Positions 923 to 32,916 of a DNA stretch of 64,000 bases are shown one piece after another. The notes beneath the pieces are model-generated. The model was not told the origin of the DNA. It made no database searches and saw only the letters and a list, made by a program, of their open reading frames with translations. How positions within the stretch are numbered: position 1 is the stretch's first letter; each line of letters opens with the position of its first letter. Source of the DNA: Acidimicrobiia bacterium (GTDB lineage Bacteria; Actinomycetota; Acidimicrobiia; IMCC26256; PALSA-610); the NCBI GenBank assembly GCA_026002935.1, contig BPGH01000001.1, forward strand, positions 1,413,965 through 1,477,964, given 5' to 3'. Made by a program: the position numbers and the translations under genes.

Positions 923-3694
923 TCACGGGCTGGCGCGGCTGCCGCTGCGGTTGATCGCCGCCGGGTCGGTGCCGAGATACGACGCGACGACGAGCGGGTC
1001 GTCGCGCACCTCGGCGGGGGGGCCGGCGGCGATGACCCGCCCCGCCTCGAGGCAGTAGACGCGGTCGCTGATCCCGAGCACGAGTGGCATGTCGTGCTCG
1101 ATCACGAGCAGGCCCGCGTCGAGCTCCTCGCGGACGCGCAGGATCAGCGGCCCGAACGCCTCCGTCTCGCGCTGCGCGACGCCGGCGGTCGGTTCGTCGA
1201 GGCACAGGACGCGGGCGCCCGAGGCCATGAGGCACGCCAGCTCGACGACGCGCCGGGTGCCGGTCGACAGCTCGTCGACGAACCGGTCGGCGAAGCGGCC
1301 GAGACCGAGGAACGCGATGATCTCGTCGGCCTCGGGGCGCACGCGCCGCTCCCACGGCCGCGCCCCGCGCACGGCGAGCGCGACGGTCTGGCGGACCGTC
1401 AGGTCGGCGAACAACTCCGCGCCCTGCCACGACCGGCCGAGCCCGAGCCGGGCGCGGCGCGCCGGCGGCAAGCGGCCGACGCCGCGCCCGAGGATCTCGA
1501 TCTCGCCGCGCGCGGGGACGAACCCGCAGATCGCGTTCATCAGGGTCGTCTTCCCGGCGCCGTTCGCGCCGATCAGGCCGACCACCTCCGACCGCCCGAC
1601 GACGAGGTCGACGCCGTCGAGCGCGACGCGTCCGCCGAACCGCACGGTGACGCCGGTGGTGCGAATCGCGGCCGTGACGGTGGCGGGGACGGGCTCGCGG
1701 CGCAGCGCGACCGGCGCCGGCACGGCGGAGGGAGCTGCGGTCGGCTCGCCGGCCGCGGGCATGCGGGCCGCGACGGCGGCGACGAGCGCGTCGCGCGCGG
1801 AGTACCAGACCTGGACCAGCCCGCCCGGGAAGTACAGCAGCAGGATCAGCAGGCCGGCGCCGCTCGTGAGCAGGCCGACCTCGACGCTGTCGTCGAACAG
1901 CACCGGGAGACCCACCACCCACGCGGCACCGGCGACGGCGCCGGCCACCGACGAGAGCCCGCCGATCACGACGATCGAGATGACGCGCAGCGACTCGGCG
2001 GCCAGGTAGTCGGTGGGGCGGGTCTCCCGCAGCAGGCCCACCAGCAGCCCGCCCGCGAGCCCGGCGAGCCAGCCGCCGATCCCGAACGCGACGACCTTCA
2101 CCCGCGCGGGCGAGATCCCGAACGACGCGGCCGCGCGCTCGTTGTCGCGCACGGCGACCATCGCCCGCCCGAGCCGGCTGCCCTGCAGCCACGCGACTGC
2201 GCCGACCGCGAGCGCCAGGACGCACAGGCACAGGGCGTAGTAGGCGCCGTTGGAGCCGAGGTCGAGGCCCTCGTCGAACAGGAAGGCGGGGAGGGGCAGC
2301 ACCTGCCGGGGCAGCTCGGCCTCCAGGTCGCCCGCGAGGAACACGTCGCGGTACAGCAGCCACGACGACGTGGCGACTGCGAACGCGAACGACACGACGG
2401 CGAGGAACAGCCCGGGCCGGCGGAGCGCCGGCGCGCCGACGGCGATCGCCGTCGCGGCGGCGACGGAGGCGCCGAGCACGAGCGCGGGCACGAACCCCAA
2501 CCCTTCCCGCACGAGTGCCGCGGTCGACATGCCGCCGACGCCGACGAACGCGAACTGGCCGAGCGAGAGCTGGCCTGCCCAGCCCGTGAGCGCAGTCAGC
2601 GAGAGGGCGATCAGCGCGTACAGGAGCACGCGGGTCCACGCGTGCTGCTGCGACGGGAGGTCGAACACCACGAGCGGCGCGAGCGCGAGCAGGAGCACGA
2701 CCGTCCCGCCGGCTACCGGGATCCCGCGTACCCACCAGACGCGCTCGAGCACGGCCGGGACCGGCCGGACACGCGGGCTGAACGACCATCGGCCGCTGTC
2801 GGCCTCGGCGAGGCCGCGCCCGCGCCGGCGCACGAGCAGCGTCACGAGGACGACGACGAACGCCAGCGCGTCGAGGAGGCCGCGCTGGTCGTTGAAGTTG
2901 TACGACACGACGCTCTCACCGACCCCGACCGCCACGCCGGCGGCCAGAGCGCCCGGCAGTGACGCCATCCCCGCCAGCAGCGCCGCGGTCAGCACCCGCA
3001 GGAGGAGCCCGGGGCCGAGCCCGGTGGCCCCGACCCCCTGCGGGCTCAACGGCGCGAACAACATCGCGCCGAGCGCCGCGAGTGCCCCGGCGAGGACCCA
3101 CACCAGCGTCGACATCTTCTTGATGCCGATCCCGGCCAGGCGCGCGGCGTCGGCGTTGGCCGCCGACGCCCGCACGGCGAGGCCGTACCTGGTGCGGCCG
3201 AGGAACAGCGCGAGCGCGGCGACGAGCACCGGCATCACGACCAGCACGAGCAGTTCCTGGCTGCGGACGACGACCCCGGCCACCTCGAAGCGGTCCGACC
3301 ACGGCGTCGGGTACGGCCGCACCCGGGTCACCTGCGGGAGGACGAGCTGGAAGAAGAGCATGAGCTGCGCCGCGCCGATGAGCGCGACGAGCAGGATCAC
3401 GCGGGGCGCACTGAACAGGCGGCGCACCACGAGCAGCTCGGTCGCCGCGCCGAACGCCGCGCCGACGGCGACGCAGGCGACGAACGAGAGCCAGAAGGGA
3501 GCGTCCCAGTCGATCACGAGCCGGTACAGCAACGCCGCGGCGAACCCGCCCATCTCGCCGACCGCGAAGTTGACCACCCGCGTCGAGCGGAACACGAGGA
3601 TGACGCCGACGGCCATGACGCCGTAGGTGACCCCGGTCACCGCCCCGGAGAAGACGACCTGCCGGGGGAACTCGAGGGCGAGCACGGCGCCCAT
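923..3694 (-). CDS. Branched-chain-type ABC transporter, fused permease-permease-ATPase (LivH-LivM-LivG)
   Basis: One 923-residue protein carries three normally separate subunits of a branched-chain amino-acid/amide-type importer. Residues about 1-295 are a LivH-like permease (start GVTYGVMAVGVILVFRSTRVVNFA). About 320-640 are a LivM-like permease (GWAGQLSLGQFAFVGVGG and the loop RDNERAAASFGI). About 670-923 are a LivG-like ATPase with Walker A GANGAGKTTL, a signature close to ELSTGTRR and Walker B VLCLDEPTAG. The ORF track merges it with an upstream shadow into 1766 aa. I place the start at the ATG 5 nt after the stop of the MFS-LivF gene, where recognisable LivH sequence begins. It is the last gene of the operon LivK, MFS-LivF, LivHMG. 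The substrate is unknown; the neighbourhood suggests a carboxylate or CoA-pathway substrate rather than leucine. Confidence 0.9.
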   Translation of the reverse strand: MGAVLALEFPRQVVFSGAVTGVTYGVMAVGVILVFRSTRVVNFAVGEMGGFAAALLYRLVIDWDAPFWLSFVACVAVGAAFGAATELLVVRRLFSAPRVILLVALIGAAQLMLFFQLVLPQVTRVRPYPTPWSDRFEVAGVVVRSQELLVLVVMPVLVAALALFLGRTRYGLAVRASAANADAARLAGIGIKKMSTLVWVLAGALAALGAMLFAPLSPQGVGATGLGPGLLLRVLTAALLAGMASLPGALAAGVAVGVGESVVSYNFNDQRGLLDALAFVVVLVTLLVRRRGRGLAEADSGRWSFSPRVRPVPAVLERVWWVRGIPVAGGTVVLLLALAPLVVFDLPSQQHAWTRVLLYALIALSLTALTGWAGQLSLGQFAFVGVGGMSTAALVREGLGFVPALVLGASVAAATAIAVGAPALRRPGLFLAVVSFAFAVATSSWLLYRDVFLAGDLEAELPRQVLPLPAFLFDEGLDLGSNGAYYALCLCVLALAVGAVAWLQGSRLGRAMVAVRDNERAAASFGISPARVKVVAFGIGGWLAGLAGGLLVGLLRETRPTDYLAAESLRVISIVVIGGLSSVAGAVAGAAWVVGLPVLFDDSVEVGLLTSGAGLLILLLYFPGGLVQVWYSARDALVAAVAARMPAAGEPTAAPSAVPAPVALRREPVPATVTAAIRTTGVTVRFGGRVALDGVDLVVGRSEVVGLIGANGAGKTTLMNAICGFVPARGEIEILGRGVGRLPPARRARLGLGRSWQGAELFADLTVRQTVALAVRGARPWERRVRPEADEIIAFLGLGRFADRFVDELSTGTRRVVELACLMASGARVLCLDEPTAGVAQRETEAFGPLILRVREELDAGLLVIEHDMPLVLGISDRVYCLEAGRVIAAGPPAEVRDDPLVVASYLGTDPAAINRSGSRASP

Positions 3695-3699
3695 CGCGC

Positions 3700-5898
3700 T
3701 CACCGGCCGAGGAACACCGCCCGGGCGAGGTCGTCGCGGGCGGCGAGCTCCTCGGCGGGCCCCTCGAAGCGGATCGTGCCCTTCTCCATGAACACCGCGC
3801 GGTCGCAGATCGACAGGGCGACGTTCAGCGACTGCTCGACGACGATCATCGTCTGTCCCTGCTCCTTGAGCCGGCGCACGACGTCGAGCACCTGCTGGAC
3901 GACGACCGGCGCGAGCCCCAGCGACAGCTCGTCGATGATCAGCACCTCGGGCTCGTGCACGAGTGTCATCGCGAGGGCGAGCATCTGTTGCTGGCCGCCC
4001 GACAGGTCGGCCGCGGGCACCCGCAGCCGCTCGCGCAGCACCGGGAAGTGCTCCAGCGCCCGGGCCGTCCGCCGTTCCCGTTCGGCCCGGCCGTACAGGA
4101 ACGCCGCGGCGCGCAGGTTCTCCTCGACGGTGAGCGGCGGGAACGTGGCGCCGCCGCCGATGAGCTGCACGATGCCGATCCGCACGCGCAGCTCGGGGTC
4201 GCAGTAGGTGATGGTCCGCCCGTCGAGCCGGACGACGCCGCGGTCGGGGACCCCGAGCCCGCTGATCACGCGCAGGAGGGTCGACTTGCCCGCGCCGTTG
4301 GTGCCGAGCAGCGCGAGGGTCTCCCCCCGGTGGACGTCGAGGTCGACCCCGAACAGCACCTGCACGCGGCCGTACGAGAAGTCGAGGTTGCGCACCTGGA
4401 TCACCGGCACGGACGCGCCCGGGGCGCTGCGGCGCTCCCGCTCGGCCTGCTCCTCGCGCAGCTCCTCGACGACCATCGCCATGTCGCCCCGGATGTGGCG
4501 CGCCCCGAGCGAGATGAGGAGGCCCCCGGCGAGCGACGACGGGAGGACGACGGCGGTCAGCGCGACGCGGGTTCCGTAGGCGTCGGAGAGCAGGCCGGTG
4601 AGGATCGCGCCGAAGAAGGACCCGAACAGGAACACGTACACCCCGATCATCGCGGTGCCGCGGGCGCGCAGGCGGTACGGGATGATCGTCGAGACGACGG
4701 CGGGCAGGATCGTGAACGCGGCCCGGGCGAGCGCGGTCGCCACCGCGAGGAGCGGCACCACGAGCCGGATGTCCGGCATCCACACGGCGCCGACGAGCCC
4801 GACGCCGAACGACGAGATCAGCGCCCCCACGAAGGCCATCGCAGCGGGTGGGCTGCGGCGGAACAGCGCGTCGGCGCGCCGGCCCGACAGCGCGATCGCC
4901 ACGAGCGTCGGGACGGCGACGAAACTGGCCACGATCCCTCGCTCGAACGCGTCGAGCCCGAGCTCCTCCTCGTAGTACAGGCTCAGGAACAGCGGTGCGC
5001 TGAACAGCGCGAGCCCGAGCGTGGCCATGCCGACGAGGAAGTAGTGGAAGCTGCGGATCTTCCTGAGCCGTTCGAACGCGACCGACAGGGAGATCGGCAG
5101 GTCGTCGTCGGCCGGGGCGAGCTCGTGGCCAAGCACCGCCCGCATCTCGTGGCGGCCGCGGCGCGGCTCGGGGATCGTCAGCGCGGCGAGCGCGACCGGG
5201 AGCGCGAGCAGCCCGATGGCCACGAACGCGACGCGCCAGCCCTCCTCCCCGCTCCCGAGCGCGGCGGCCCCGCCCGCGAGGAACGGCGCCACCATAGTGC
5301 CGACCGACTGGCCGGCGCCGAGCACCGCGAACACCTTGGCCCGCGCCTGGATCGGGTACGTGTCGATCAGCAACGGGCCCGTGACGGGCAGCGACGACGA
5401 CTGGCCGAGTCCGGCGCCGAGTCGTGCGAGGAACATCTGCAGCGCGTTCTGGACGAGGCCCGTGAGCGCGACGACGACGGACCACGCGGTCATCGTGACG
5501 CCGACGAGCGTCCTGCGGGGCAGGCGGTCCGACAGCGACGACATGGGGATCGCGCCGAGTACGAACAGCACGCCGGTAGCGCCACCGATCGCGCCGAGGA
5601 CCGCGTCGGAGACGCCGAGCGTGCGCTGGATGTCGGGGGCGAGAACGTTGAACGCCGCGTTGTCGAACAGCTCGATCGCCCCGAGGGTCGTGACGATCGC
5701 GATCGTGCGCCGGCCGCCGCGCCGCAGCGCGTCGCGCAGGGTCAGCTCCTCGGAGGCGACCCCCGGCAGCTCGGCGTCGTCGACCTGCGGCGCGCAGGGG
5801 GGCGCCTGGCGCCGCGCGCGGCGTGCCTCCTCGTCGAGCACGGTCGCGACGAGCGATGCCGCGACGGGAGCGTCGGCCGGCTCGTCCGGCTCGCGCAT
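3700..5898 (-). CDS. MFS transporter fused to a LivF-like ABC ATPase
   Basis: This 732-residue protein has two unrelated transporter modules. Residues about 40-460 form a complete major-facilitator module: 12 hydrophobic segments can be read, with an MFS loop-like SLSDRLPRRTLVG after the second segment. A charged linker follows (EELREEQAERERRSA). Residues about 480-732 are a LivF-type ATPase with Walker A GTNGAGKST, signature LSGGQQQM and Walker B VLIIDELSLGL. It sits between the LivK lipoprotein gene (3 nt away) and LivHMG (5 nt away), so the ATPase half is the only LivF candidate for that importer. The MFS half is intact, so the protein may be bifunctional or the MFS part may act as a membrane anchor. 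No frameshift or internal stop separates the halves. Confidence 0.9.
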   Translation of the reverse strand: MREPDEPADAPVAASLVATVLDEEARRARRQAPPCAPQVDDAELPGVASEELTLRDALRRGGRRTIAIVTTLGAIELFDNAAFNVLAPDIQRTLGVSDAVLGAIGGATGVLFVLGAIPMSSLSDRLPRRTLVGVTMTAWSVVVALTGLVQNALQMFLARLGAGLGQSSSLPVTGPLLIDTYPIQARAKVFAVLGAGQSVGTMVAPFLAGGAAALGSGEEGWRVAFVAIGLLALPVALAALTIPEPRRGRHEMRAVLGHELAPADDDLPISLSVAFERLRKIRSFHYFLVGMATLGLALFSAPLFLSLYYEEELGLDAFERGIVASFVAVPTLVAIALSGRRADALFRRSPPAAMAFVGALISSFGVGLVGAVWMPDIRLVVPLLAVATALARAAFTILPAVVSTIIPYRLRARGTAMIGVYVFLFGSFFGAILTGLLSDAYGTRVALTAVVLPSSLAGGLLISLGARHIRGDMAMVVEELREEQAERERRSAPGASVPVIQVRNLDFSYGRVQVLFGVDLDVHRGETLALLGTNGAGKSTLLRVISGLGVPDRGVVRLDGRTITYCDPELRVRIGIVQLIGGGATFPPLTVEENLRAAAFLYGRAERERRTARALEHFPVLRERLRVPAADLSGGQQQMLALAMTLVHEPEVLIIDELSLGLAPVVVQQVLDVVRRLKEQGQTMIVVEQSLNVALSICDRAVFMEKGTIRFEGPAEELAARDDLARAVFLGR

Positions 5899-5901
5899 GT
5901 G

Positions 5902-7233
5902 CTAGTCGACCCGGATCGGGGTCGCGCCGTCGACGGGGACGAACTCCTCGCGCGCCGCGTCGTAGCGCGAGATGAAGACGTAGTCGCCCGCGTCGTGCTT
6001 GTCGGGTCCGAGCGACCCCTCCGGCCCGGCCGACATCTCCAGCGTCGTGAACGACTCCAGCGCCTCGATCACGGCCGCCTGGGTGAGCTCGCCGGCTGCG
6101 GCAGCCTGCTCGATCGCGTCGACGAGGGTCAGGAGCTGCAGGCAGGTGACGGCGGTGTAGCCGTAGCCGTCGGAACCGCGCTCGAACCGTTCGGCGCCGC
6201 CCGCGACGGCGATCTCGTTGCACTCATCGGCGGCGGGCGTGGGCTCGGGGAACACGGTGTCGATGCCCCACGCGCCGTCGTAGTTGTCCTTGGCGTTGAC
6301 GAAGAAGCGCGCCACCGTGTCGGTCACGTTGTTGCCGATCGTCGCCCATTCGGGCTCGAAGCCGAGGTTGGCCGCGGCCTCGACCGTGGCGGCGCCGGCG
6401 AGCGTGAGCGCGGTGAGGAACACGAAGTCCACTCCGGCGTCCTGCAGGCGCTGGATCGCCACGTCGTGCTGCTCGCACCCGGCGGCCGCGCTCCCCTCGG
6501 GGCAGGGGAGCACCGAGATCGCCGCGACCTCGTGGCCGAGGGCCTCGAGCCCCGGCACCAGGCCCTCCTCCACGGCTTCCTGCTGCTCGGTGCTGTCGAC
6601 GCGGACGATTCCGATCGTCTTGCCGTCGAGCAGGCCCTGCTCGTCCAGCACCTTCGGCCAGGCCCGGTACTCGCGCTGGCGGCTCACCGAGGTGTGCGTC
6701 GCGACCGAGAACAGCCGGCCCTCGCCCTCGTCGTAGAACGAGTCGGGCCAACTGTCCATCGTGATGGTGATCGCGCCCTCGTGGCGTGCCGAGCACTCGA
6801 CGGTCTCGGGCGTGATCGCCGCGGTGATGACGACCGCGAACGGCTGGGCGTCCTCGGTCGCGCGCAGGCACGCCTCCCGGCCCGCGTCGGGGTTGATGGC
6901 GGCGTCCGCGCCGGCGATGACGTGGGGGACGAGTTCGATGCGCCGTCCGGCGACGCCGCCGCCGTCGTTGACGTGCGCGACGACCGCCTCGAGCGTGGCC
7001 TGCGCGTCGCCGATCTCGGGCGCGAGGTTCTGCTCGCTCAGGGCGGACAGGTCCGACGCGATCAGCGAGACGCGGATCGTGTCGTCGGTGACCCCCTGTA
7101 CGGAGCGGGCGTCACCGGCCTCGCCGGAGCCTCCGTCCGCGGCGTCGCGGTCCTCGCTCGACTCGCTCGTGCACGCCCCGAGCACGAGCGCCACGGCGGT
7201 CCCCAGCGCGGCCCAGCGACGCCGACTCCCCAT
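5902..7233 (-). CDS. LivK-like ABC transporter substrate-binding lipoprotein
   Basis: A 443-residue type-1 periplasmic-binding protein (Peripla_BP_6/LivK family) that would deliver ligand to the fused permease downstream. The N-terminus has a basic region, a hydrophobic core and a lipobox LGAC with Cys21, so it is a probable lipoprotein. Typical family features include the early ISLIASDLSALSEQ stretch, a 'NDGGGVAGRRIEL' segment and the hinge-region 'IGIVRVDS'. The ATG start follows a purine-rich GGGGGGAGACCG leader. It is the first gene of a three-gene operon whose promoter region carries the 19-bp box at 7271-7289 and two direct repeats. The nearby hydrolases, oxygenases and CoA-ligases suggest an organic-acid or aromatic/isoprenoid ligand rather than an amino acid; this is inference. 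Confidence 0.9.
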   Translation of the reverse strand: MGSRRRWAALGTAVALVLGACTSESSEDRDAADGGSGEAGDARSVQGVTDDTIRVSLIASDLSALSEQNLAPEIGDAQATLEAVVAHVNDGGGVAGRRIELVPHVIAGADAAINPDAGREACLRATEDAQPFAVVITAAITPETVECSARHEGAITITMDSWPDSFYDEGEGRLFSVATHTSVSRQREYRAWPKVLDEQGLLDGKTIGIVRVDSTEQQEAVEEGLVPGLEALGHEVAAISVLPCPEGSAAAGCEQHDVAIQRLQDAGVDFVFLTALTLAGAATVEAAANLGFEPEWATIGNNVTDTVARFFVNAKDNYDGAWGIDTVFPEPTPAADECNEIAVAGGAERFERGSDGYGYTAVTCLQLLTLVDAIEQAAAAGELTQAAVIEALESFTTLEMSAGPEGSLGPDKHDAGDYVFISRYDAAREEFVPVDGATPIRVD

Positions 7234-7270: not shown

Positions 7271-7289
7271 GCTGCATAACATATACAGC
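7271..7289 (-). promoter_or_regulatory. 19-bp palindromic box and -10 region of the LivK operon
   Basis: Read toward LivK the box is GCTGTATATGTTATGCAGC, identical over all 19 bases to the box at 28880-28898. It is an imperfect inverted repeat (TGYATA-N3-TATRCA) and contains a -10-like TATGTT. FCD-type GntR regulators commonly bind GTATAC-like palindromes, and such a regulator is encoded 1.4 kb away. Operator function and regulator identity are inference. Confidence 0.6.
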
Positions 7290-7345: not shown

Positions 7346-8566
7346 CTACGCAGGGGCGGGTGTGACCGGCCGGTCGCCGTGCACCTCGTCGAGCGACGGG
7401 CCGATGCGCGCGACGAGCGGCGCGAGCGCGGCGCGGTCGACGCCGTAGAGGTCGGCGGCGGTCTCGCCGAGCATCCGGCGCGCCTCGTCGACGGGGACCT
7501 CGCGAAAGCGCTCGCGGATCCAGTAGCGGGTGTAGGGAAACGTGCCCTCCGGGTGGGGCAGGTCGTTGCCCCACAGGAAGTTGCCGACCCCGACGAGGTG
7601 GCGCCGCTCCATGTCCTCGACGCCCGGGGTCGACGCGGCGAGGAAGCAGTTTCGGTCGAAGTACTCCGTGGGCTTCATCGAGATGGCCTCGCGGAACACC
7701 TTGCCCATCTTCTCGGTGTTGTGGCCCCCGACGAACTTCTCGTCCATCTTGGCGAGGATGTCGGGCGCCCACCACGCGCCGTTCTCCGCGATCACGTAGC
7801 GCAGGCCGGGGTGGCGCTCGAACACGCCCGACCAGATGAGCACCCACAGCGGGCGCGCCGCCCACCAGTAGGCCTCGGTCGCGTAGATCGCCATCATCCC
7901 CGGCCCGAGCCCGTAGTCGGCCGGGCCGGCGCCGGAGTGCGTGTGCAGGACCATGCCGAGCTCCTCGCAGACCGCCCACACCGGCTCGTAGCGGGGGTCG
8001 AGGTAGGCCGGCGCGTCGAACCACCGCGTCGGGATGAGCACGCCGCGCAGGCCCATCCCGTGCGCCGCACGGATCTCCGCGACCGCGGCGTCGACGTCGT
8101 GGAGGATGGGCACGACGGCGACCCCGATGCGCCGGTGCGGCGCCTGCGCGCAGAAGTCGGCGAGCCAGCGGTTGTGGGCGCGCGCGCCCGCCATCGCGAG
8201 CTCGGGCTCGGTGCCCGCGCCGCCGTTGAGCCCCGAGCCGAACGGTGACGCAGAGACCCGGCCGGTGCCGAGGACGTCGGCGTCGGGGAACAGCACCTCG
8301 GCGGCGACCCCCTGCTCGTCGAGCACCCGGTTGCGCACGTCGGAGTCGTACGCCGCGGTGAGGCCGCCGTCGCCCCCGGTGATGCGCTCCCACTTCGCGA
8401 CGAACTCCTCGTTCTGGCGCATCGCGCGCGACAGCTCGAGGAGTTGCCTCACCTGCTCCTGGTACTCGTCGAACGCGGGCTTGTACCGCTCCTCGAGGTA
8501 GTCGCGGTACACGGGTGCGGGCGGGCCGGCGTGTCCGTCGGACGAGATGACGAGATAGCGGTCCAC
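7346..8566 (-). CDS. Amidohydrolase family protein (Amidohydro_2-like)
   Basis: A metal-dependent TIM-barrel hydrolase/decarboxylase of the amidohydrolase-2 superfamily, 406 residues. The N-terminal metal-site motif is visible (SSDGHAGPP), followed by family-typical segments such as 'VLIPTRWFDAP' and a later 'YVIAENGAWWAPDIL'. The ORF track extends it to 580 aa, but the family similarity begins at VDRYLVISSDG. I chose the GTG because GGAGG lies 4 nt before it, whereas the ATG 15 nt upstream has no ribosome-binding site. It is transcribed away from GntR and may follow its own promoter in the 8567-8656 gap. A paralogue with a similar leader lies at 20.0-21.3 kb. The reaction is unknown; members include hydrolases and decarboxylases such as ACMSD. 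Confidence 0.88.
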   Translation of the reverse strand: MDRYLVISSDGHAGPPAPVYRDYLEERYKPAFDEYQEQVRQLLELSRAMRQNEEFVAKWERITGGDGGLTAAYDSDVRNRVLDEQGVAAEVLFPDADVLGTGRVSASPFGSGLNGGAGTEPELAMAGARAHNRWLADFCAQAPHRRIGVAVVPILHDVDAAVAEIRAAHGMGLRGVLIPTRWFDAPAYLDPRYEPVWAVCEELGMVLHTHSGAGPADYGLGPGMMAIYATEAYWWAARPLWVLIWSGVFERHPGLRYVIAENGAWWAPDILAKMDEKFVGGHNTEKMGKVFREAISMKPTEYFDRNCFLAASTPGVEDMERRHLVGVGNFLWGNDLPHPEGTFPYTRYWIRERFREVPVDEARRMLGETAADLYGVDRAALAPLVARIGPSLDEVHGDRPVTPAPA

Positions 8567-8648
8567 GGCACCTCCGCGCATTCCAGAACGACGCTCCGAA
8601 ATGCCATCCGAAAACGCGGGCCCTGTCAAGGAGCCGCGGGGCGGACTG

Positions 8649-8662
8649 GATACGTTATGCAA
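8649..8662 (+). promoter_or_regulatory. Promoter/box of the GntR gene (ATACGTTATGCA)
   Basis: GATACGTTATGCAA directly precedes the GntR start. TACGTT (8651-8656) fits a -10 hexamer 6 nt before the ATG at 8663, giving a leaderless transcript. The same core ATAYGTTRTRYA is found at the LivK, acyl-CoA ligase and dehydratase promoters. Autoregulation by the GntR protein is a natural inference. Confidence 0.5.
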
Positions 8663-9346
8663 ATGGCCCGCCTGCTCCCGGCGCCGAGCCTCGGCCTCGC
8701 GCCCCGCACGGCCGCGGAGCGGGCCGCCCGCTACGTCCGGCGGCTCGTCTTCGACGGGCACCTGCGGCCCCACGACCGGGTGCCCCAGGACGACGTCGCG
8801 GCCGCGCTCGGCCTCAGCAGGATCCCCGTGCGAGAGGCGCTCATCGCCCTCGAACGGGAGGGGTGGGTCCGCATCGAGCCGCACCGCGGCGCGTTCGTGA
8901 ACCCGCTCGACGAGGCTGCGGTGCGGGACCACTTCGAGCTCTACGGCCTCACCTTCGGGCTCGCGGCGCGCCGGGCGGTCGAGCGTGGGGTGGCCGACGA
9001 GCTGGCGGCGACGCTGGCGGACCTGAGCGCGGCGGCCGCCGGCACCGACGACCCGGCCGAGTTCGGCCGGCTCGCCCTCGCGTTCCACGAGGCGGTCGTC
9101 GAGGCCGCCGCCTCGCCGCGCATCGGCGTCGTGCTGCGCGCGATGTCGACGATCGTGCCCGGCAACTTCTTCGCGCTCGTGCCCGATTCGGTGCCGATCG
9201 AGCGCGAGGGCCTCGAACGCCTCGTCGGAACGATCCGTGCGGCCGACGCGGACGCGACGGTGGCCGAGTACCTGCGCATGATGCGCCTCCAGGCCGACCA
9301 GGTGGTCGCGCTGTTCCGGGAACGCAACCTCTTCGGGAGCGGGTGA
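8663..9346 (+). CDS. GntR-family transcriptional regulator (FCD subfamily)
   Basis: A 227-residue regulator. Residues about 10-75 form the GntR winged helix-turn-helix (RLVFDGHLRPHDRVPQDDVA, then the recognition helix GLSRIPVREALIALEREG and the wing 'IEPHRGAFV'). The remainder is an all-helical FCD effector domain with the expected FHEAVVEAA helix. No Shine-Dalgarno precedes the start, and a -10 element lies 6 nt upstream of this ATG, so translation is probably leaderless; an in-frame ATG 6 nt upstream is the alternative. It heads an operon with hydrolase, P450 and sulfatase genes, all coupled by stop/start overlaps. FCD regulators typically respond to organic acids or CoA-pathway intermediates and often control their own operon. 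The ATAYGTT boxes here are the candidate sites. Confidence 0.9.
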   Translation: MARLLPAPSLGLAPRTAAERAARYVRRLVFDGHLRPHDRVPQDDVAAALGLSRIPVREALIALEREGWVRIEPHRGAFVNPLDEAAVRDHFELYGLTFGLAARRAVERGVADELAATLADLSAAAAGTDDPAEFGRLALAFHEAVVEAAASPRIGVVLRAMSTIVPGNFFALVPDSVPIEREGLERLVGTIRAADADATVAEYLRMMRLQADQVVALFRERNLFGSG

Positions 9347-10089
9347 TGCACTTCGTCCTCGTGCACGGCGGCGCGACGACCTCGCGGTTCTGGGACCGGC
9401 TCGTGCCGTTGCTCGCGCACCCGGTGCTCGCCGTCGACCTCCCCGGGCGCGCGGGCAAGGAGTGCGACCCGATGGCGCTGACCGTCGACGACTGCGTCGC
9501 GTCGATCGTTGCCGACGTGGAGTCCGCCGGTGTCGACGGCGACGTCGTGTTCGTCGCGCACTCCTCGGGCGGGCTGTTCGTCCCCGGGGCCGCGGCCGCG
9601 CTCGGCGAGCGCGTCCGCCACGTCGTGCTGTCGGCCGCGTCGGTGCCGCCCGAGGGCGGGACCGGGCTGGAGTGCATGCAGCCGAAGCACCGTGCCCGCA
9701 CCGAGCAGGGGATCGCCGCCGCCCGCCGCGACGGCTGGGTGCTCACGACGCCCGGCCCGCCCGAGGACCCCGAGGTGATGCGCCGCGCCTACGGCGGCGA
9801 CCCCCTCGACGACGAGACGCTCGCCTTCGTCGTCGACCCCGCGCGCGCGGTGAAGGACTCGATGAATTTCTACTTCCAGCCCGTCTCGTGGCGGGCGGTC
9901 GCGCACGTCCCGGTGACGTACGTGAAGGGCCTGCGCGACAATCCGATCCCGCCGGCGCTGCAGGACGAGATGATCGCCCGGTTGCCGAATCCCGTGGAGG
10001 TGGTCGAGATGGACGTGGGTCACATCCCCGCGGTCACGCACGCCGCCGAGTTCGCGGCCGTGTGCAACCGGGCGGCGGGTGCGCGATGA
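9346..10089 (+). CDS. Alpha/beta-fold hydrolase
   Basis: A 247-residue alpha/beta hydrolase of the salicylate-esterase/EstC-like type (short N-terminus FVLVHGGATTSRFWDRLVPLL). The nucleophile elbow reads AHSSGG, with Ser73 the probable nucleophile in place of the usual GHSxGG. The oxyanion HGG lies at residues 7-9, and 'VGHIPAVTHAAEF' near the C-terminus supplies the catalytic His. There is no signal peptide, so it is cytoplasmic. Its ATG overlaps the GntR stop (TGATG) and its own stop overlaps the P450 start (ATGA), so it is translationally coupled in the GntR operon. It probably cleaves an ester or lactone in the same catabolic route; the substrate is unknown. Confidence 0.88.
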   Translation: MHFVLVHGGATTSRFWDRLVPLLAHPVLAVDLPGRAGKECDPMALTVDDCVASIVADVESAGVDGDVVFVAHSSGGLFVPGAAAALGERVRHVVLSAASVPPEGGTGLECMQPKHRARTEQGIAAARRDGWVLTTPGPPEDPEVMRRAYGGDPLDDETLAFVVDPARAVKDSMNFYFQPVSWRAVAHVPVTYVKGLRDNPIPPALQDEMIARLPNPVEVVEMDVGHIPAVTHAAEFAAVCNRAAGAR

Positions 10090-11309
10090 CGCGGAGCACC
10101 ACGCCGACGGAGCTCTACTGGGACCCGTTCGACACCGAGATCGACGCGGACCCGTACCCCGTCTGGCGGCGGCTGCGCGACGAGGCGCCCGTGTACCGCA
10201 ACGAGCGCTACGACTTCTGGGCGCTCAGCCGATTCGACGACGTCGAGGCGGCACACAAGGACAACCAGACGTTCAGTTCCGCGCACGGAACGGTGCTCGA
10301 GCTGATGTCGCCCGACGTGGTGCGGGGCGGCAACAGCTCGATCATCTTCATGGACCCGCCCGAGCACACCCAGCTCCGGGCACTCGTGTCGCGCGCGTTC
10401 ACGCCGCGACGGGTCAGCGCGCTCGAGGGCCGCATCCGCGAGCTGTGCCGAGAGCTGTTCGCTGCGGTGGAGGGCCGGGACACGTTCGACTTCGTGCAGG
10501 ACTTCAGCGCGCGCCTGCCGGCGGAGGTCATCGCGTCCCTGCTCGGGGTCCCGGACTCCGACCGGGAGTTCGCGCGCCGCCACATCGACCTGGTGTTCCA
10601 CATCGAGCCCGGCGTCGGGATGATCAACGAGACGTCGCTGCGCGCCCAGATCACGCTGTGGGAGTACCTGGGCGCGCAGCTCGAGGAGCGGCGGAAGGCG
10701 CCCCGCGACGACATGCTGACGGGCCTCGTACAGGCGGAGATCACCGGCGACGACGGCTCGACGCGCAAGCTGACCGACCACGAGGCGACCGCGTTCGCGA
10801 ACCTGCTGATCAGTGCGGGCACCGAGACGGTCGCCCGGCTGCTCGGCAACGCGGCCGTCGTGCTCGCCGCGCACCCCGACCAGCGCGCCGACCTCGTCGC
10901 CGACCGGTCGCTGATCCCCAACGCGATCGAGGAGCTGCTGCGGTTCGAGCCCCCGTCACCCGTGCAGGGCCGCTGGACGACCCGGCCGGTCGAGCTGCAC
11001 GGCACTGCGATCCCGAAGGACGCGAAGGTGCTGCTGCTCACCGGCTCGGCGGGGCGCGACGAGCGGCGGTTCCCCGAGCCCGACCGCTTCGACGTCCGCC
11101 GCCGGATCGACCACCACCTGTCGTTCGGGTACGGGATCCACTTCTGCCTCGGCGCGGCGCTCGCGCGCCTCGAGGGCCGCATCGGGCTCGAGGAGACGCT
11201 CGCGCGGTTCCCGGCCTGGGACGTCGACCTCGCGCACGCGCGCCGGTTGCACACGAGCACCGTGCGCGGCTGGTCGTCGGTGCCGTTCTCGCCCGCACGC
11301 GGGCGATGA
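10086..11309 (+). CDS. Cytochrome P450
   Basis: A soluble bacterial class I P450 of 407 residues, the normal length. The I-helix oxygen-activation motif is present (SAGTETVARLLG), as are the K-helix ExxR (EELLR) and the heme-binding loop FGYGIHFCLGAALAR with the thiolate ligand at about Cys354. It would use ferredoxin and ferredoxin reductase, but neither is encoded in the window. It overlaps the hydrolase upstream and the sulfatase downstream by 4 nt each, so the four genes GntR-hydrolase-P450-sulfatase should be co-transcribed. The general look recalls CYP125/CYP142-type or terpenoid hydroxylases, but the family number cannot be assigned by eye. A hydroxylation of a hydrophobic substrate is likely. 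Confidence 0.95.
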   Translation: MTRSTTPTELYWDPFDTEIDADPYPVWRRLRDEAPVYRNERYDFWALSRFDDVEAAHKDNQTFSSAHGTVLELMSPDVVRGGNSSIIFMDPPEHTQLRALVSRAFTPRRVSALEGRIRELCRELFAAVEGRDTFDFVQDFSARLPAEVIASLLGVPDSDREFARRHIDLVFHIEPGVGMINETSLRAQITLWEYLGAQLEERRKAPRDDMLTGLVQAEITGDDGSTRKLTDHEATAFANLLISAGTETVARLLGNAAVVLAAHPDQRADLVADRSLIPNAIEELLRFEPPSPVQGRWTTRPVELHGTAIPKDAKVLLLTGSAGRDERRFPEPDRFDVRRRIDHHLSFGYGIHFCLGAALARLEGRIGLEETLARFPAWDVDLAHARRLHTSTVRGWSSVPFSPARGR

Positions 11310-13573
11310 CGGCCGGGCGCACGGTCGCCGACGCCGAGCCGTTCCCGCAGCCGCCGCCCGGGCGGCGGCACGGCCCGAACGTGGTGGTCGTCGTACTCGA
11401 CGACCTCGGCTTCGCGCAGCTCGGCTGCTTCGGCTCCGACGTCGCGACGCCCGCGATCGACGCGCTCGCCGCGGACGGGCTGCGCTACAACCGGTTCCAC
11501 GTCACCGCGCTGTGCTCGCCGACCCGCGCGGCGCTGCTCACCGGGCGCAACCACCACCGGGTCGGGATGGGGCTGCTGCCCGAGGTCGCGATCCGGTTCC
11601 CGGGTTACACGGGTCGCCTGCCGCGTTCGGCGGCGACCGTCGCCCGGCACCTGCGCGACGCCGGCTACTCGACGTTCGCGGTGGGCAAGTGGCACCTCGC
11701 GCCGCGCGACGAGTGGAGCGCGTCGGGCCCGTTCGACCGGTGGCCGCTCGGCGTGGGCTTCGAGCGCTACTACGGGTTCCTCGGCGGCGACACCAACCAG
11801 TGGGCGCCCGAGCTGGTGTGCGACAACCACCCCGTCGACCCCCCGGGGCCGCCGGGCGACTACCACCTCACCGAGGACCTCGCCGACCGGGCGATCCGCA
11901 TGATCCAGGACCAGCAGCAGGCGACGCCCGGCAAGCCGTTCTTCCTCTACTTCGCGACGGGCGCGGTGCACGCGCCGCACCACGTCGCGCCCGAGTGGTC
12001 CGGCCGCTACCGCGGCGCGTTCGACGACGGCTGGGACGCGTGGCGGGAGCGCACGTTCGCCCGGCAGGTCGCGTCGGGGATCGTGCCGGCGGGCACGACG
12101 CTCACCCCGAGGCCGCCGTGGGTGCGGGAGTGGTCGTCGCTGCCGGCGGCGGAGCGTCGCCTGTACGCGCGGATGATGGAGGTGTTCGCGGGCTTCCTCA
12201 CCCACACCGACGCGCAGATCGGTCGCATCGTCGGCTTCCTGCGCGACCTCGGCGTGCTCGACGACACGCTGCTGTGCGTCCTGTCCGACAACGGCGCGAG
12301 CGCCGAGGGCGGCCCGACCGGTTCGGTCAACGAGCACCGGTTCGCGCACGGCCTGCCCGAGGACCTCGCCGAGAACCTCGCGGCGATCGACGAGCTCGGC
12401 GGACCCCGCGCCTACAACCACTACGCGTGGGGCTGGGCGTGGGCGGGCAACACGCCGCTGCGCCTGTGGAAGCGCTACACGTGGCTCGGCGGGACGCGCA
12501 CGCCGCTCGTCGTCCACTGGCCGGCCGGCACGGCCGCGCGCGGCGGGATCCGCTCCCAGTTCTGCCACGCCGTCGACCTCGCGCCGACGATCCTCGACGT
12601 CGCCGGGGTCGAGCCGGCGCCGGTCGTCGACGGCGTCGAGCAGATGGGCTTCGACGGCGCCTCGCTGCGCGCGACCTTCGACGACCCGGACGCGCCCGCG
12701 CCGCGTTCGACCCAGTACTTCGAGATGCTCGGCAGCCGCGCGATCTACCACGACGGCTGGAAGGCGACGACCGACCACGTCGGCGGCCAGCTCGCGGTGG
12801 AGCGCGAACACCTCGAGGGGTCCACCGCGTTCGACGAGGACCGCTGGCTGCTGTTCGACCTCGCCAGCGACTTCTCCGAGGCCCACGACGTGTCGGCGCG
12901 ACACCCCGGCCGGCTCGCCGAGCTGGTCGCCGCGTGGGAGCGGGAGGCGGAGCGCAACGACGTGTACCCGCTGGACGACACGTTCATCGGCCGGGCGCGC
13001 GCGATGTTCCGGCCCCGCTACCCGCCGCGGCGGCGCACGGTGTACCGGCCCGGCGGCGGGCCGGTCCAGGAGGACGCGCTGCCCCCGCTCGGCAACGGGT
13101 TCACGGCCGTGGCCACCGTCGAGGTCGGCGACGACGGCGGGGAGGGCGTCGTGTACGCGTTGGGCGACTGGACGAACGGCTTCGCGTGCTACCTGGTCGG
13201 CGGGCGGCCGGTGCACGTGATCAACGGGTTCGGCCACGCGCACCGCCTCGAGGCGCCGGCGCCCCTGCGGGCCGGGCGCCACACGGTCGGGTTCCGGTTC
13301 GAGCGCGAGGGGCTCACCGGCGTGCTCCTCGTCGACGGCGAGGAGGTCGCGCGCCAGGCGCTGCCGCACGGGCTCCCGTTCCGCTGGCAGATCGGGGGCG
13401 CCGGTCTCACCGTCGGGTACGACCGCGGCCTGCCCGTCCACGACGACTACCGGCCCCCGTTCCCGTTCCGCCCGACGCTGCACGAGGTCGCCTTCGAGAT
13501 CCCGTGGATCGCGCCCGACGAACCGGACGGCGCGGCCCGGGCCGCCTACGAGGTCGCGCGCCGCGGCGAGTGA
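11306..13573 (+). CDS. Arylsulfatase-type sulfatase
   Basis: A type I sulfatase of 755 residues, close in length to the long actinobacterial arylsulfatases (AtsA-like). The formylglycine signature CSPTR (Cys70) is intact, so it needs a formylglycine-generating enzyme encoded elsewhere. Metal ligands are visible at LDD (residues 31-33) and later 'LSDNGAS'; 'VGKWHL' supplies the conserved Lys/His pair. No signal peptide is seen, so it is probably cytoplasmic. A C-terminal beta-rich extension (about 570-755) follows the catalytic core. It is the last gene of the GntR operon (4-nt overlap with P450). It would release sulfate from a sulfate ester, suggesting that the operon's substrate or an intermediate is sulfated. 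Confidence 0.93.
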   Translation: MTAGRTVADAEPFPQPPPGRRHGPNVVVVVLDDLGFAQLGCFGSDVATPAIDALAADGLRYNRFHVTALCSPTRAALLTGRNHHRVGMGLLPEVAIRFPGYTGRLPRSAATVARHLRDAGYSTFAVGKWHLAPRDEWSASGPFDRWPLGVGFERYYGFLGGDTNQWAPELVCDNHPVDPPGPPGDYHLTEDLADRAIRMIQDQQQATPGKPFFLYFATGAVHAPHHVAPEWSGRYRGAFDDGWDAWRERTFARQVASGIVPAGTTLTPRPPWVREWSSLPAAERRLYARMMEVFAGFLTHTDAQIGRIVGFLRDLGVLDDTLLCVLSDNGASAEGGPTGSVNEHRFAHGLPEDLAENLAAIDELGGPRAYNHYAWGWAWAGNTPLRLWKRYTWLGGTRTPLVVHWPAGTAARGGIRSQFCHAVDLAPTILDVAGVEPAPVVDGVEQMGFDGASLRATFDDPDAPAPRSTQYFEMLGSRAIYHDGWKATTDHVGGQLAVEREHLEGSTAFDEDRWLLFDLASDFSEAHDVSARHPGRLAELVAAWEREAERNDVYPLDDTFIGRARAMFRPRYPPRRRTVYRPGGGPVQEDALPPLGNGFTAVATVEVGDDGGEGVVYALGDWTNGFACYLVGGRPVHVINGFGHAHRLEAPAPLRAGRHTVGFRFEREGLTGVLLVDGEEVARQALPHGLPFRWQIGGAGLTVGYDRGLPVHDDYRPPFPFRPTLHEVAFEIPWIAPDEPDGAARAAYEVARRGE

Positions 13574-13627: not shown

Positions 13628-14683
13628 TCAGTCGATCGCCTTGGCGGGATCGCTGTAGAACTGCTGCGCCCACTTGCGGTGGGCGAGGATCCCCGTCTCC
13701 TCCTTGGTGAGCACGGGGCGCTCGACGAAGCGCTTGTTCTCCCAGATCGGGATGTCCTGGCTCACGCCCGCGAGGAAGCGGTCGCCGATGTCGCGGGCGG
13801 CGTCGGGGCCGAGCGACCGTGGCGTCACCCAGCTCCAGCGCACGTGCACGTGCTCCTCGTCGATCGGGGTCGTCGACGACAAGAAGGTGAACGCGCCGGG
13901 TGTGCGCAGCACGCCGAGGCCGAGGCCGAACGACTCGCGCACGAACGTGCCACCACCGGCCTCCGTGCGCTTGTACGGCTGGTCGGTCACGAACTGCTCG
14001 GTGTCCCACGGGATGTCGGGCGTGCCGTGCACGTACTGGAAGTGTGCGAAGTCGTGGTTGTTCTCGGCCATCTCCTGGCAGCACGTCGCGATGACGAAGT
14101 CCCGCGTGTAGGGCTCCGACCACTCGGGATCGGAGAACTCGGGCACCTCGGGCACCTCGTAGAACGGTTCACCGCCCTCGAGGTGGTGCCACGCCCACAC
14201 CATCCGGTTGCGCTCGACGGTGGGGAACGCGCGCACCCGGGCCCGGCTCGGCACCTTGGGCGAGTCGGTGTAGGGGATGTCGGTGCAGCGGCCGCTGCCG
14301 CCGTCGTAGCACCAGCCGTGGAAGGGGCAGCGGATGCCCTCGCCGTCGACGCGCCCGCCCACCGCGAGGTTCGCGCCGAGGTGCGCGCAGTACGCGTCGA
14401 CCAGGCGGGCCGCGCCGGACCCGGTGCGGAACAGGGCCAGCTCGCGCCCGAAGTAGTAGACAGGGAGCACCTCGCCGGGGCGCAGCGCGTCGGACGGCGA
14501 GACGATGAACCACCCGTTGGGGATCGGGAACGGGAACCGCCGGCCGCGGGTGCGGCGCACGACCGTGCGGCGGGCGGGGTCGAGCGTGATCTCCTTGTCG
14601 GCCGGCATGGGCAGCCCGGGCGGGACGGGCGCCGACACCGGCGGGGCGGGCGCGGCGGGCCCGCGCGACTCCGTGATCGCCAT
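13628..14683 (-). CDS. Rieske non-heme iron oxygenase, alpha subunit (KshA-like)
   Basis: A 351-residue Rieske oxygenase. The [2Fe-2S] ligands are C99-x-H101 (CAHLGANL) and C119-x2-H122 (CPFHGWCYD). The catalytic iron site reads ENNHDFAHFQYVHG, giving N208/D211/H214/H219. 'PIPNGWFIVSPSD' before the Rieske domain is characteristic of the 3-ketosteroid-9-alpha-hydroxylase (KshA)/cholesterol-desaturase branch. It needs a reductase partner that is not in the window. The ATG is preceded by GGAGG at 5 nt. A perfect 7-bp inverted repeat lies upstream (14716-14738). It is divergent from the MDR gene and convergent with the sulfatase operon. Steroid or terpenoid hydroxylation or desaturation is plausible but not proven. 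Confidence 0.92.
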   Translation of the reverse strand: MAITESRGPAAPAPPVSAPVPPGLPMPADKEITLDPARRTVVRRTRGRRFPFPIPNGWFIVSPSDALRPGEVLPVYYFGRELALFRTGSGAARLVDAYCAHLGANLAVGGRVDGEGIRCPFHGWCYDGGSGRCTDIPYTDSPKVPSRARVRAFPTVERNRMVWAWHHLEGGEPFYEVPEVPEFSDPEWSEPYTRDFVIATCCQEMAENNHDFAHFQYVHGTPDIPWDTEQFVTDQPYKRTEAGGGTFVRESFGLGLGVLRTPGAFTFLSSTTPIDEEHVHVRWSWVTPRSLGPDAARDIGDRFLAGVSQDIPIWENKRFVERPVLTKEETGILAHRKWAQQFYSDPAKAID

Positions 14684-28879: not shown

Positions 28880-28898
28880 GCTGTATATGTTATGCAGC
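28880..28898 (+). promoter_or_regulatory. 19-bp palindromic box and leaderless promoter of the dehydratase operon
   Basis: GCTGTATATGTTATGCAGC is identical to the LivK-operon box (7271-7289, opposite strand). TATGTT (28886-28891) lies 7 nt before the GTG start, as in leaderless actinobacterial promoters. The same site would place uptake and catabolism under one regulator. Confidence 0.6.
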
Positions 28899-30149
28899 GT
28901 GGCCGAGGCCGGACGGATCACCGACGAGGGCGTCGCGCGCCTGCGCGCGCGCATCGGGATCCCGGAACCGCACCCCCAGCCGCCGTACTACACGCTGCCG
29001 ACGGTCGACACGTTCCGCAACGTCGCCCACGCCTACGGCGACGACAACCCGCTGTGGTGCGACCCCGCGTACGGCCCGCGCACGCGCTGGGGCGCGCCGA
29101 TCGCGCCGCCCCCGCTCGTCGGCGGCGACACCCTGATCGGGGAGGACGAGGTGCCCGAGGTCGCGCCCGAGCACCGCGACCTGATGAAGGGCGACCCGCT
29201 GCGCGGCGTGCACGCGTTCTACGCCGCGAGCGCCCGCGAGTGGTGGGCGCCGCTGTACCCGCTGCGGCGCACGTTCCGGCGCAACGCGCTCGTCGCCGTG
29301 CTCGAGAAGGAGGGCGAGTTCGCCGGGCGGACGGTCCACGAGTGGACGGCGCAGGTGTTCCGCGACGAGACGGGGACGATCCTGTCGGGCCAGTACCGGC
29401 TCATGGTGCGCACCGAGCGCGAGAAGGCCCGGGAGCGCAAGAAGTACGACTCGGTCGAGCTGCGTCCCTACACCGACGAGGAGATCGCGCAGATCGAGGC
29501 CCAGTACGAGCGCGAGCGGGCGCGGGGCGGCGAGCCGCGCTGGTGGGAGGACGTGGAGGAGGGTGACGAGGTCGGCCCGATGGTCAAGGGGCCGCTCACG
29601 GTCACCGACATGATCTGCTGGCACGCGGGCATGGGGATGGGCCTGTACGGCGTCAAGCCCCTGCGGCTCGGCTACCGGAACCGCAAACGGATCCCGCGGT
29701 TCTTCCACCGCGACGAGCTCAACGTGCCCGACGTGATGCAGCGCGTCCACTGGGACCCGGAGTTCGCCCGCCGCGCCGGCAACCCGACCACCTACGACTA
29801 CGGACGGATGCGCGAGACGTGGCTGATCCACCTGTGCACCGACTGGATGGGTGACGACGCGTGGCTCTGGAAGCTCGACTGCGAGTTCCGTCGCTTCAAC
29901 TACGTCGGCGACACGCAGTGGCTGCGGGGCCGCGTCACCCGCAGGTACCTCGCGGCCGGCGCGCGGCCCGCGGTCGACCTGGAGCTGGAGGCCCGCAACC
30001 AGCGGGACGAGGTGACGACGCCGGGCCGCGCCACGATCCTGCTGCCCAGCCGCGAGCACGGCCCCGTACGGCTGCCCGACCCGCCCGGTGGCGCGACCGA
30101 CCTGCAGGGCGCGCTCGCGGCGATCTCCGCGGAGTTCTCCCGGCGATGA
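28899..30149 (+). CDS. MaoC/FAS1-type double-hotdog acyl-CoA dehydratase
   Basis: A 416-residue protein with two hotdog modules. The N-terminal half (about 1-170) is a FAS1-like dehydratase domain with DTFRNVAHAYGDDNPLWCDPAYG; the C-terminal half (about 200-400) is MaoC-like. Such proteins hydrate enoyl-CoA esters, including bulky steroid side-chain or ring-derived ones (ChsH-type). The GTG start follows a -10 element with no ribosome-binding site; an upstream in-frame ATG at 28887 lies inside the box and is less likely. It is the first of seven overlapping genes ending with the ligase at 35785. Confidence 0.85.
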   Translation: MAEAGRITDEGVARLRARIGIPEPHPQPPYYTLPTVDTFRNVAHAYGDDNPLWCDPAYGPRTRWGAPIAPPPLVGGDTLIGEDEVPEVAPEHRDLMKGDPLRGVHAFYAASAREWWAPLYPLRRTFRRNALVAVLEKEGEFAGRTVHEWTAQVFRDETGTILSGQYRLMVRTEREKARERKKYDSVELRPYTDEEIAQIEAQYERERARGGEPRWWEDVEEGDEVGPMVKGPLTVTDMICWHAGMGMGLYGVKPLRLGYRNRKRIPRFFHRDELNVPDVMQRVHWDPEFARRAGNPTTYDYGRMRETWLIHLCTDWMGDDAWLWKLDCEFRRFNYVGDTQWLRGRVTRRYLAAGARPAVDLELEARNQRDEVTTPGRATILLPSREHGPVRLPDPPGGATDLQGALAAISAEFSRR

Positions 30150-30967
30150 CGGCGCCGCCGCCCGGCTACCCCGCGGTCGACGGGCTCGCCGTCGGGCTCG
30201 AGGGCGGGGTGCTGCGCCTGCGCCTCGACCGGCCCGCCAAGCGCAACGCCGTCTCCGAGGCGATGATGATCGGGCTCGTCGACGCCCTCGAGGCGGCCGC
30301 CACCGACGAGGCCGTGCGCGTCGTGCTCCTCGAGGGGGCGGGCGAGCACTTCTGTGCCGGGGCCGACGTCGTCGCCCGCAACGCCGACCCGGACGCGCGG
30401 CCGCGCACCGGCAGCATCCAGCGCCGGCTCCCGGTGCAGGCCCACCGGCTCCTCCCGCTCGTGTGCGGCGTGCAGGTGCCCGTCGTGTGCAAGGTGCGGG
30501 GATGGGCCGCGGGCATCGGCTTCCAGCTCGCGCTCGCGGCCGACTTCACGGTCGCGGCGCGCGACGCACGCTTCTGGGAGCCGTTCGCGCGTCGGGGCTT
30601 CACCCCCGACAGCGGCGCGACGTGGCTGTTGCCGCGTCGCGTCGGCGACGTGCGCGCCCGCGAGCTGCTGCTGCTCGGACGCGAGCTGTCGGGCGAGGAG
30701 GCCGTCGAATGGGGCGCGATCCACGCCGCGGTCGACGCCGCGGAGCTCGACGGCGCGGTCGACGCGCTCGTCGCGCAGCTCGCGCAGGGCCCCACCGTCG
30801 CGCTCGGGCTCACCAAGTGGCTGCTCCACCACGGTGCCGGGGTGCCGCTCGACCAGCACCTCGCGCACGAGGCGTTCGCGTTGGAGCTGTCGTCGCGCAC
30901 CGCCGACTTCCGCGAGGGCATGGCGGCGTTCGTCGAGAGGCGCGCGCCGCGCTTCGAGGGCCGATGA
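30146..30967 (+). CDS. Enoyl-CoA hydratase/isomerase family protein (non-canonical active site)
   Basis: A 273-residue crotonase with the oxyanion-hole segments EHFCAGADVVARN and VRGWAAGIGFQLALAAD. Both catalytic Glu positions of rat enoyl-CoA hydratase are changed: Glu144 to Gln (FQLALAAD) and Glu164 to Phe (EPFARRG). It may therefore be a hydrolase, isomerase or other crotonase reaction rather than a hydratase. The ATG overlaps the preceding stop (ATGA) and its own stop overlaps the acyl-CoA dehydrogenase start. The ligand is presumably an acyl-CoA formed by the operon ligase. Confidence 0.88.
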   Translation: MTAPPPGYPAVDGLAVGLEGGVLRLRLDRPAKRNAVSEAMMIGLVDALEAAATDEAVRVVLLEGAGEHFCAGADVVARNADPDARPRTGSIQRRLPVQAHRLLPLVCGVQVPVVCKVRGWAAGIGFQLALAADFTVAARDARFWEPFARRGFTPDSGATWLLPRRVGDVRARELLLLGRELSGEEAVEWGAIHAAVDAAELDGAVDALVAQLAQGPTVALGLTKWLLHHGAGVPLDQHLAHEAFALELSSRTADFREGMAAFVERRAPRFEGR

Positions 30968-32906: not shown

Positions 32907-32916
32907 CGGAGGAGCG

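Follow-up and report, generated by a model that had tools for sequence, protein, structure and literature searches.

A predicted GntR-regulated catabolic island with three types of oxygenase and a locally joined sulfatase in an Acidimicrobiia genome

The operon and its neighbouring oxygenases

The window analysed here, a stretch of 64,000 nucleotides on contig BPGH01000001.1 of the Acidimicrobiia bacterium assembly GCA_026002935.1 (3.45 Mb, four contigs, 85% complete), holds a four-gene operon that we discuss together with the predicted GntR regulon to which it belongs. The operon lies on the plus strand and encodes, in this order, a GntR/FCD transcriptional regulator (8663..9346; Pfam GntR 4e-15, FCD 5e-8; an in-frame ATG is also found at 8657), an alpha/beta-hydrolase of the esterase/lactonase type (9346..10089; Abhydrolase_6 3e-25; HSSGG nucleophile elbow), a cytochrome P450 of the soluble bacterial type (10086..11309; p450 2e-28) and a type I sulfatase (11306..13573; Sulfatase 4e-65) whose core resembles the Pseudomonas aeruginosa arylsulfatase PaAS (S1_4-type) and is followed by an extra C-terminal beta-sandwich domain. 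Consecutive genes overlap by 1, 4 and 4 nt: the TGA stop of the GntR gene and the ATG of the hydrolase gene have one base, 9346, in common, and ATGA overlaps are found at 10086-10089 and 11306-11309. An earlier sequence-only reading of this stretch had placed the four genes and their stop/start overlaps in just this way, as is confirmed here. It had also pointed out the full translational coupling, which is ordinary, as an overlap of exactly 1 or exactly 4 nt is seen in 13 of the 36 same-strand neighbour pairs called in the window (36%), a further run of three overlaps being found at 28899-32220. The overlaps therefore carry no weight as evidence, and coupling was rejected as a special argument for joint function. 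The four-gene operon is real, its coupling is ordinary and it is not a conserved four-gene system.

The P450 has a complete set of motifs (heme-cysteine loop FGYGIHFCLG, ExxR as ELLR, I-helix AGTET), no NCBIfam model above its cut-off, and named GTDB relatives that are mostly from Acidimicrobiia. The alpha/beta-hydrolase has weak PDB kin that include SABP2, polyneuridine-aldehyde esterase and a pyrethroid hydrolase. The best PDB match of the sulfatase is PaAS itself (1HDH, 1.6e-72), with which its predicted fold aligns at a TM score of 0.85 (E 1.5e-41, 31% identity in the fold alignment). The formylglycine motif, CSPTRAALLTG at residue 70, is intact, as had been claimed from the sequence, and the remainder of the PaAS active site is present in the elements DD, GKWH, HAPH, DNGA and K389; C70, P72 and R74 as well as D32, D33, K128, H130, H222, D328, N329 and K389 are invariant across 21 homologues. 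The protein differs from PaAS in carrying about 200 additional C-terminal residues, in being encoded in a P450 operon and in that no maturase was found in the assembly. Within this extension, residues ~600-730 are predicted to form the beta-sandwich, which is matched by no Pfam model and occurs in the aligned homologues too. Since no signal peptide is evident in the hydrolase or, when its sequence is read by eye and with no predictor, in the sulfatase, both enzymes are probably intracellular.

Divergent from the GntR gene lies a minus-strand gene (7346..8566) for a PF04909 protein that matches PtmU3 (6.9e-34) and also DitZ (7.8e-19). The dinuclear metal site of AibH2 has the ligands DxH, H, E and DxxH (D25, H27, H211, E265, D337 and H340; PMC7782822). 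The counterparts of these residues in the window protein (D10, H12, H210, E261, D335 and H338) do not vary across an alignment of 11 sequences, among them the window's second PF04909 protein, and PtmU3 is the top fold match of its AlphaFold model (pLDDT 79), with DitZ, TruffO, SfbO and AibH2 among the best. Because the six ligands are invariant and the modelled fold is of the PtmU3 type, the protein is probably a dinuclear C-H monooxygenase, a kind of enzyme for which the name ARO (here amidohydrolase-related dinuclear oxygenase) has been used (PMC10811679); on the same metal ligands and fold, the possibility that it is an ordinary hydrolase or decarboxylase was set aside. Ligands and fold are thus as in PtmU3, AibH2 and SfbO (PMC7782822, PMC10811679), whereas the setting differs: a full KshA-type oxygenase is the neighbour here, and no small Rieske ferredoxin was recognised beside the gene, the nearest Rieske protein being that oxygenase. 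A ferredoxin partner of the AibG type is an aid to the discovery of AROs and not part of their definition (PMC10811679). A second predicted ARO of family PF04909 (20039..21325, minus strand) has the same six metal ligands, and orthologues of it (73-83%) are found at loci L108, L115 and L209.

The KshA-type neighbour, a Rieske oxygenase of 351 aa encoded on the minus strand (13628..14683) and convergent with the sulfatase gene, combines the Rieske (2e-19) and KshA_C (2e-28) domains of the 3-ketosteroid 9alpha-hydroxylase KshA, to which it is also matched in the PDB (5e-38). It differs from KshA in that the similarity is weak and in that no other steroid-ring genes, such as KstD or Hsa genes, were recognised among the genes annotated, which represent the scanned part of the window's genes. 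Judged from these family assignments, the island would hold three unrelated oxygenase types: a P450, a KshA-like Rieske enzyme and a PtmU3-like dinuclear enzyme.

A conserved predicted operator and its regulon

The upstream regions of the GntR orthologues have in common a palindrome, TGCATA-N3-TATGCA, that abuts the start codon. Three sites with one mismatch each occur in the window, against 0.05 expected when up to two mismatches are allowed. Predicted operator 1 (8647..8661; TGGATACGTTATGCA, one mismatch to TGCATANNNTATGCA) abuts the GntR start, predicted operator 2 (7273..7287) lies upstream of an ATP-binding cassette (ABC) transporter operon that runs from 7233 towards 923, and predicted operator 3 (28882..28896) lies upstream of an operon of MaoC-like, enoyl-CoA hydratase (ECH), acyl-CoA dehydrogenase (ACAD) and ligase genes. 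No other site in the whole 3.45-Mb genome matches with one mismatch or fewer, so that all such matches lie in a 21.6-kb part of the window, and the reversed control pattern gives none in this genome. As the motif was derived from GntR orthologues, the 7273 and 28882 sites, which have 20 identical bases in common (GCTGTATATGTTATGCAGCG), are independent evidence. The sequence-only reading had mentioned neither the palindromes, nor that the ABC transporter and beta-oxidation operons have the operator in common with the GntR operon, nor the divergent PF04909 gene.

When 2.57 Mb of loci were scanned with a weight matrix, the result pointed in the same direction: nearly all sites of at least 20 bits in other genomes adjoined GntR, P450, ARO, CoA-transferase or ECH genes, and no sites were found in 0.96 Mb of simulated sequence. 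Counterparts of the window's sites stand before the matching genes in other genera. In a genome of a different genus (G044), sites lie before a P450-ECH-SDR-GntR operon (SDR, short-chain dehydrogenase/reductase), before the orthologues of the window's MaoC/ECH/ACAD/ligase genes (L325; MaoC and ACAD-ligase-ECH-ECH) and before a Peripla_BP_6 gene that is not recognisably orthologous to that of the window. When the stringency is low, and in some of the other genomes, the pattern also arises by chance, and genome-wide operator counts in other genomes therefore mean little. A second candidate operator motif, CGTATANNNTATACG, performed no better than chance and was dropped. We regard the predicted catabolic regulon as well supported.

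The transporter unit, all on the minus strand, encodes a branched-chain-type ABC importer made up of a periplasmic binding protein (Peripla_BP_6; 5902..7233), a major facilitator superfamily (MFS) permease fused to an ABC ATPase (3700..5898) and BPD_transp_2 permease domains fused to an ABC ATPase (923..3694). Such fusions (923-5898; MFS-ATPase and branched-chain-type permease-ATPase) are unusual. The third predicted unit (28899..35785, plus strand) starts with a gene at 28899 whose MaoC-like class was assigned by eye, no Pfam model having matched, and continues with a PaaG-like ECH (30146), an ACAD (30964), two further ECHs (32220 and 32917), a gene of no assigned family (33705) and an AMP-dependent ligase (34385). 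A FadD3-family ligase scores above its cut-off in the window and, together with the KshA_C Rieske enzyme and the PtmU3-like AROs, points to alicyclic acids, for instance terpenoids or steroids, as candidate substrates.

Regulators of the VanR/FCD type provide the closest described parallels. AlkR (PMC12042122) and Atu1419 (PMC7797058) are FCD repressors of catabolic genes whose binding sites are short palindromes covering the -10 region, and the window GntR resembles them in being an FCD regulator with a short palindrome in that position and, as predicted, several catabolic targets. The operators differ, TGCATA-N3-TATGCA here against ATTGTCAGACAAT and ATGTATACAT of AlkR and Atu1419, as do the predicted targets, which are here a P450, an ABC importer and acyl-CoA genes. 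We found no earlier description of this predicted GntR catabolic regulon.

Conservation of the island and recurrence of the sulfatase-P450 pairing

Synteny was assessed by searching 58 genomes of the order (57 besides the genome itself) with each protein, and by scanning GTDB species genomes with the P450, fetching the neighbourhoods and comparing the 80 nearest P450 loci. The order GntR-hydrolase-P450-sulfatase did not occur a second time in either set (0/57 and 0/80), and a conserved four-gene synteny was rejected for this reason. The 20 closest sulfatase orthologues (56-67%) speak against the tie between sulfatase and P450 that the sequence-only reading had built on, none of them adjoining a P450, hydrolase or GntR gene; a P450 lies within 4.5 kb of only one, 3.4 kb off and on the opposite strand. 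Nor is there a sulfatase within 7 kb of any of the 31 nearest P450 relatives. The remark that no pathway with this exact gene order is known has held, no such pathway and no sulfatase-P450 pathway having been found in the open literature searched.

The association that does recur is that of the P450 with the surrounding genes. GntR orthologues are found in 12 of the 57 other genomes, and a GntR gene stands immediately upstream of the P450 gene at L108 and L206; the hydrolase-P450 pair is seen at L207, on the same contig as L110. Orthologues of the P450, the Rieske oxygenase and the PF04909 protein occur together in three distant genomes (L107, L108 and L115), which bears out the suggestion that the convergent Rieske oxygenase is part of the set. 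The neighbourhoods of the P450 orthologues contain the same kinds of genes as the window, and several include close orthologues of the window's binding protein, second PF04909 protein, CoA-transferases, ligase, hydratases, SDR and MaoC-like protein. The conserved core, as far as gene neighbourhoods and predicted sites define it, is a GntR-regulated island of an uptake system, several oxygenases and fatty-acid-type degradation enzymes, and the sulfatase was added to it locally.

The proximity of sulfatases to P450s is a broader phenomenon. Several genomes that encode sulfatases of a sister clade (45-52%) have a P450 gene directly upstream of the sulfatase gene, but this P450 is another one, with about 30% identity to that of the window. 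A CoA-transferase-P450-sulfatase cassette is conserved in one family of the order (L230, L231, L235, L266 and L268). On a tree of 83 sulfatases, 12 rows of which are labelled as having a P450 in the same direction no more than 2.5 kb away, the label needs 8 changes, at least 7 of which are forced by supported branches, and adjacency as an ancestral trait was rejected accordingly. Of the nine sulfatase loci in this genome, four have a P450 no more than 2.5 kb away, where 0.8 would be expected (p ~0.003). A second sulfatase operon of the genome (L223 7087-14079; C1, ~2.822-2.829 Mb) has the order PF04909-P450-zinc alcohol dehydrogenase-sulfatase-ACAD, and its P450 differs from that of the window. 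From tree and neighbourhoods, the pairing of sulfatases with P450s is a recurrent one, and the one in the window arose recently and is specific to its lineage. Catabolic islands are where both families are concentrated, and this may account for some of the excess in proximity.

A proposed catabolic route and its alternatives

We consider it probable that the island is an inducible regulon for the uptake, oxygenation and CoA-dependent degradation of a hydrophobic and probably carboxylated compound of terpenoid- or steroid-like nature. The GntR/FCD protein would repress its own operon, the branched-chain-type ABC importer and the CoA-ester degradation operon by acting through TGCATA-N3-TATGCA palindromes over or near the promoters, until released by the substrate or a CoA-ester ligand. 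The compound would then be taken up by the ABC importer and, as the protein families and their conserved linkage suggest, hydroxylated by the P450, the PtmU3-like dinuclear monooxygenase and the KshA-like Rieske enzyme, before ligases, CoA-transferases, hydratases and dehydrogenases degrade its CoA ester with cleavage of the beta-oxidation type. In this lineage, the alpha/beta-hydrolase and a resident PaAS-type sulfatase would have joined the GntR-P450 operon, probably for conjugated substrates, from which they may remove ester and sulfate groups in the cytoplasm, before or between the oxidations.

Several points weigh against this proposal. The sulfatase and the hydrolase are not conserved partners of the island, and their role could for that reason be unrelated to it; P450 and CoA-ester genes are each common in these genomes; and no operator lies upstream of the Rieske gene. 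Finally, the sulfatase might be inactive, as neither a formylglycine-generating enzyme (PF03781, TIGR03942) nor an anaerobic maturase was found in the 85%-complete assembly. PF03781 is present in 38 of the 58 genomes of the order, and at least seven sulfatases of this genome carry CxPxR; incompleteness of the assembly is the simplest reason for the missing enzyme in this genome. Two almost complete relatives, G035 and G042, have no PF03781 either, yet encode CSPTR sulfatases, and its absence from this assembly (G000), G035 and G042 may reflect incompleteness or an unknown maturase.

The strongest alternative is the one put forward by the sequence-only reading, a dedicated route for a sulfated hydrophobic molecule in which the sulfatase would desulfate the inducer substrate, to be followed by oxidation by the P450, the Rieske enzyme and other oxygenases. 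The coupled operon behind one predicted GntR operator, the repeated occurrence of P450s beside related S1_4 sulfatases, with at least seven changes forced on the tree, the excess of sulfatase loci near P450s in this genome and the second operon at L223 all speak in its favour. However, neither the sulfatase nor the P450 orthologues keep the association, and the predicted regulon is conserved without a sulfatase. We thus regard this alternative as possible but doubtful: the part that stands is an oxidative route under local regulation for a hydrophobic molecule, to which the conserved predicted operator, the P450, the Rieske enzyme, the dinuclear monooxygenase and the CoA-ester genes all point, whereas a sulfated substrate finds no support in the synteny, the test that the sequence-only reading had itself set for refuting its idea. 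A bolder version, according to which the three oxygenase classes under one GntR regulon would mineralise a sulfated terpenoid- or steroid-like molecule with the help of a recruited cytoplasmic sulfatase activated without known formylglycine-generating enzymes, strikes us as unlikely.

About as improbable is that the sulfatase serves sulfur scavenging, a function that the P. aeruginosa arylsulfatase is thought to have, and shares the GntR operon by chance only. That the latter enzyme is the nearest solved relative and that the sulfatase orthologues occur in changing contexts would fit this explanation, but the gene is tightly coupled behind a P450 under a predicted catabolic regulator, and there is no sulfate-starvation gene among the annotated neighbours. 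A biosynthetic cluster in which the P450, hydrolase and sulfatase tailor a natural product, as the macrolide hydroxylases among the PDB relatives of the P450 and the biosynthetic role of PtmU3 might suggest, is very improbable, there being no synthase or export genes among the annotated genes, neighbours for uptake, CoA ligation and beta-oxidation instead, and conserved partners that are degradative.

The Acidimicrobiia are widespread and mostly uncultured, and this genome alone encodes about 21 P450s and 13 sulfatases. A conserved operator makes it possible to assign such genes to pathways on concrete grounds; here, a transporter, oxygenases and CoA enzymes are predicted from it to act together, within an island where one 'amidohydrolase' is identified as a probable C-H hydroxylase from its ligands and modelled fold. 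We also note that a further Peripla_BP_6 binding-protein gene of the window (18002-19319), the product of which has ~446 aa in relatives, is interrupted near 18880 by a frameshift, which is either an assembly indel or the mark of a pseudogene.

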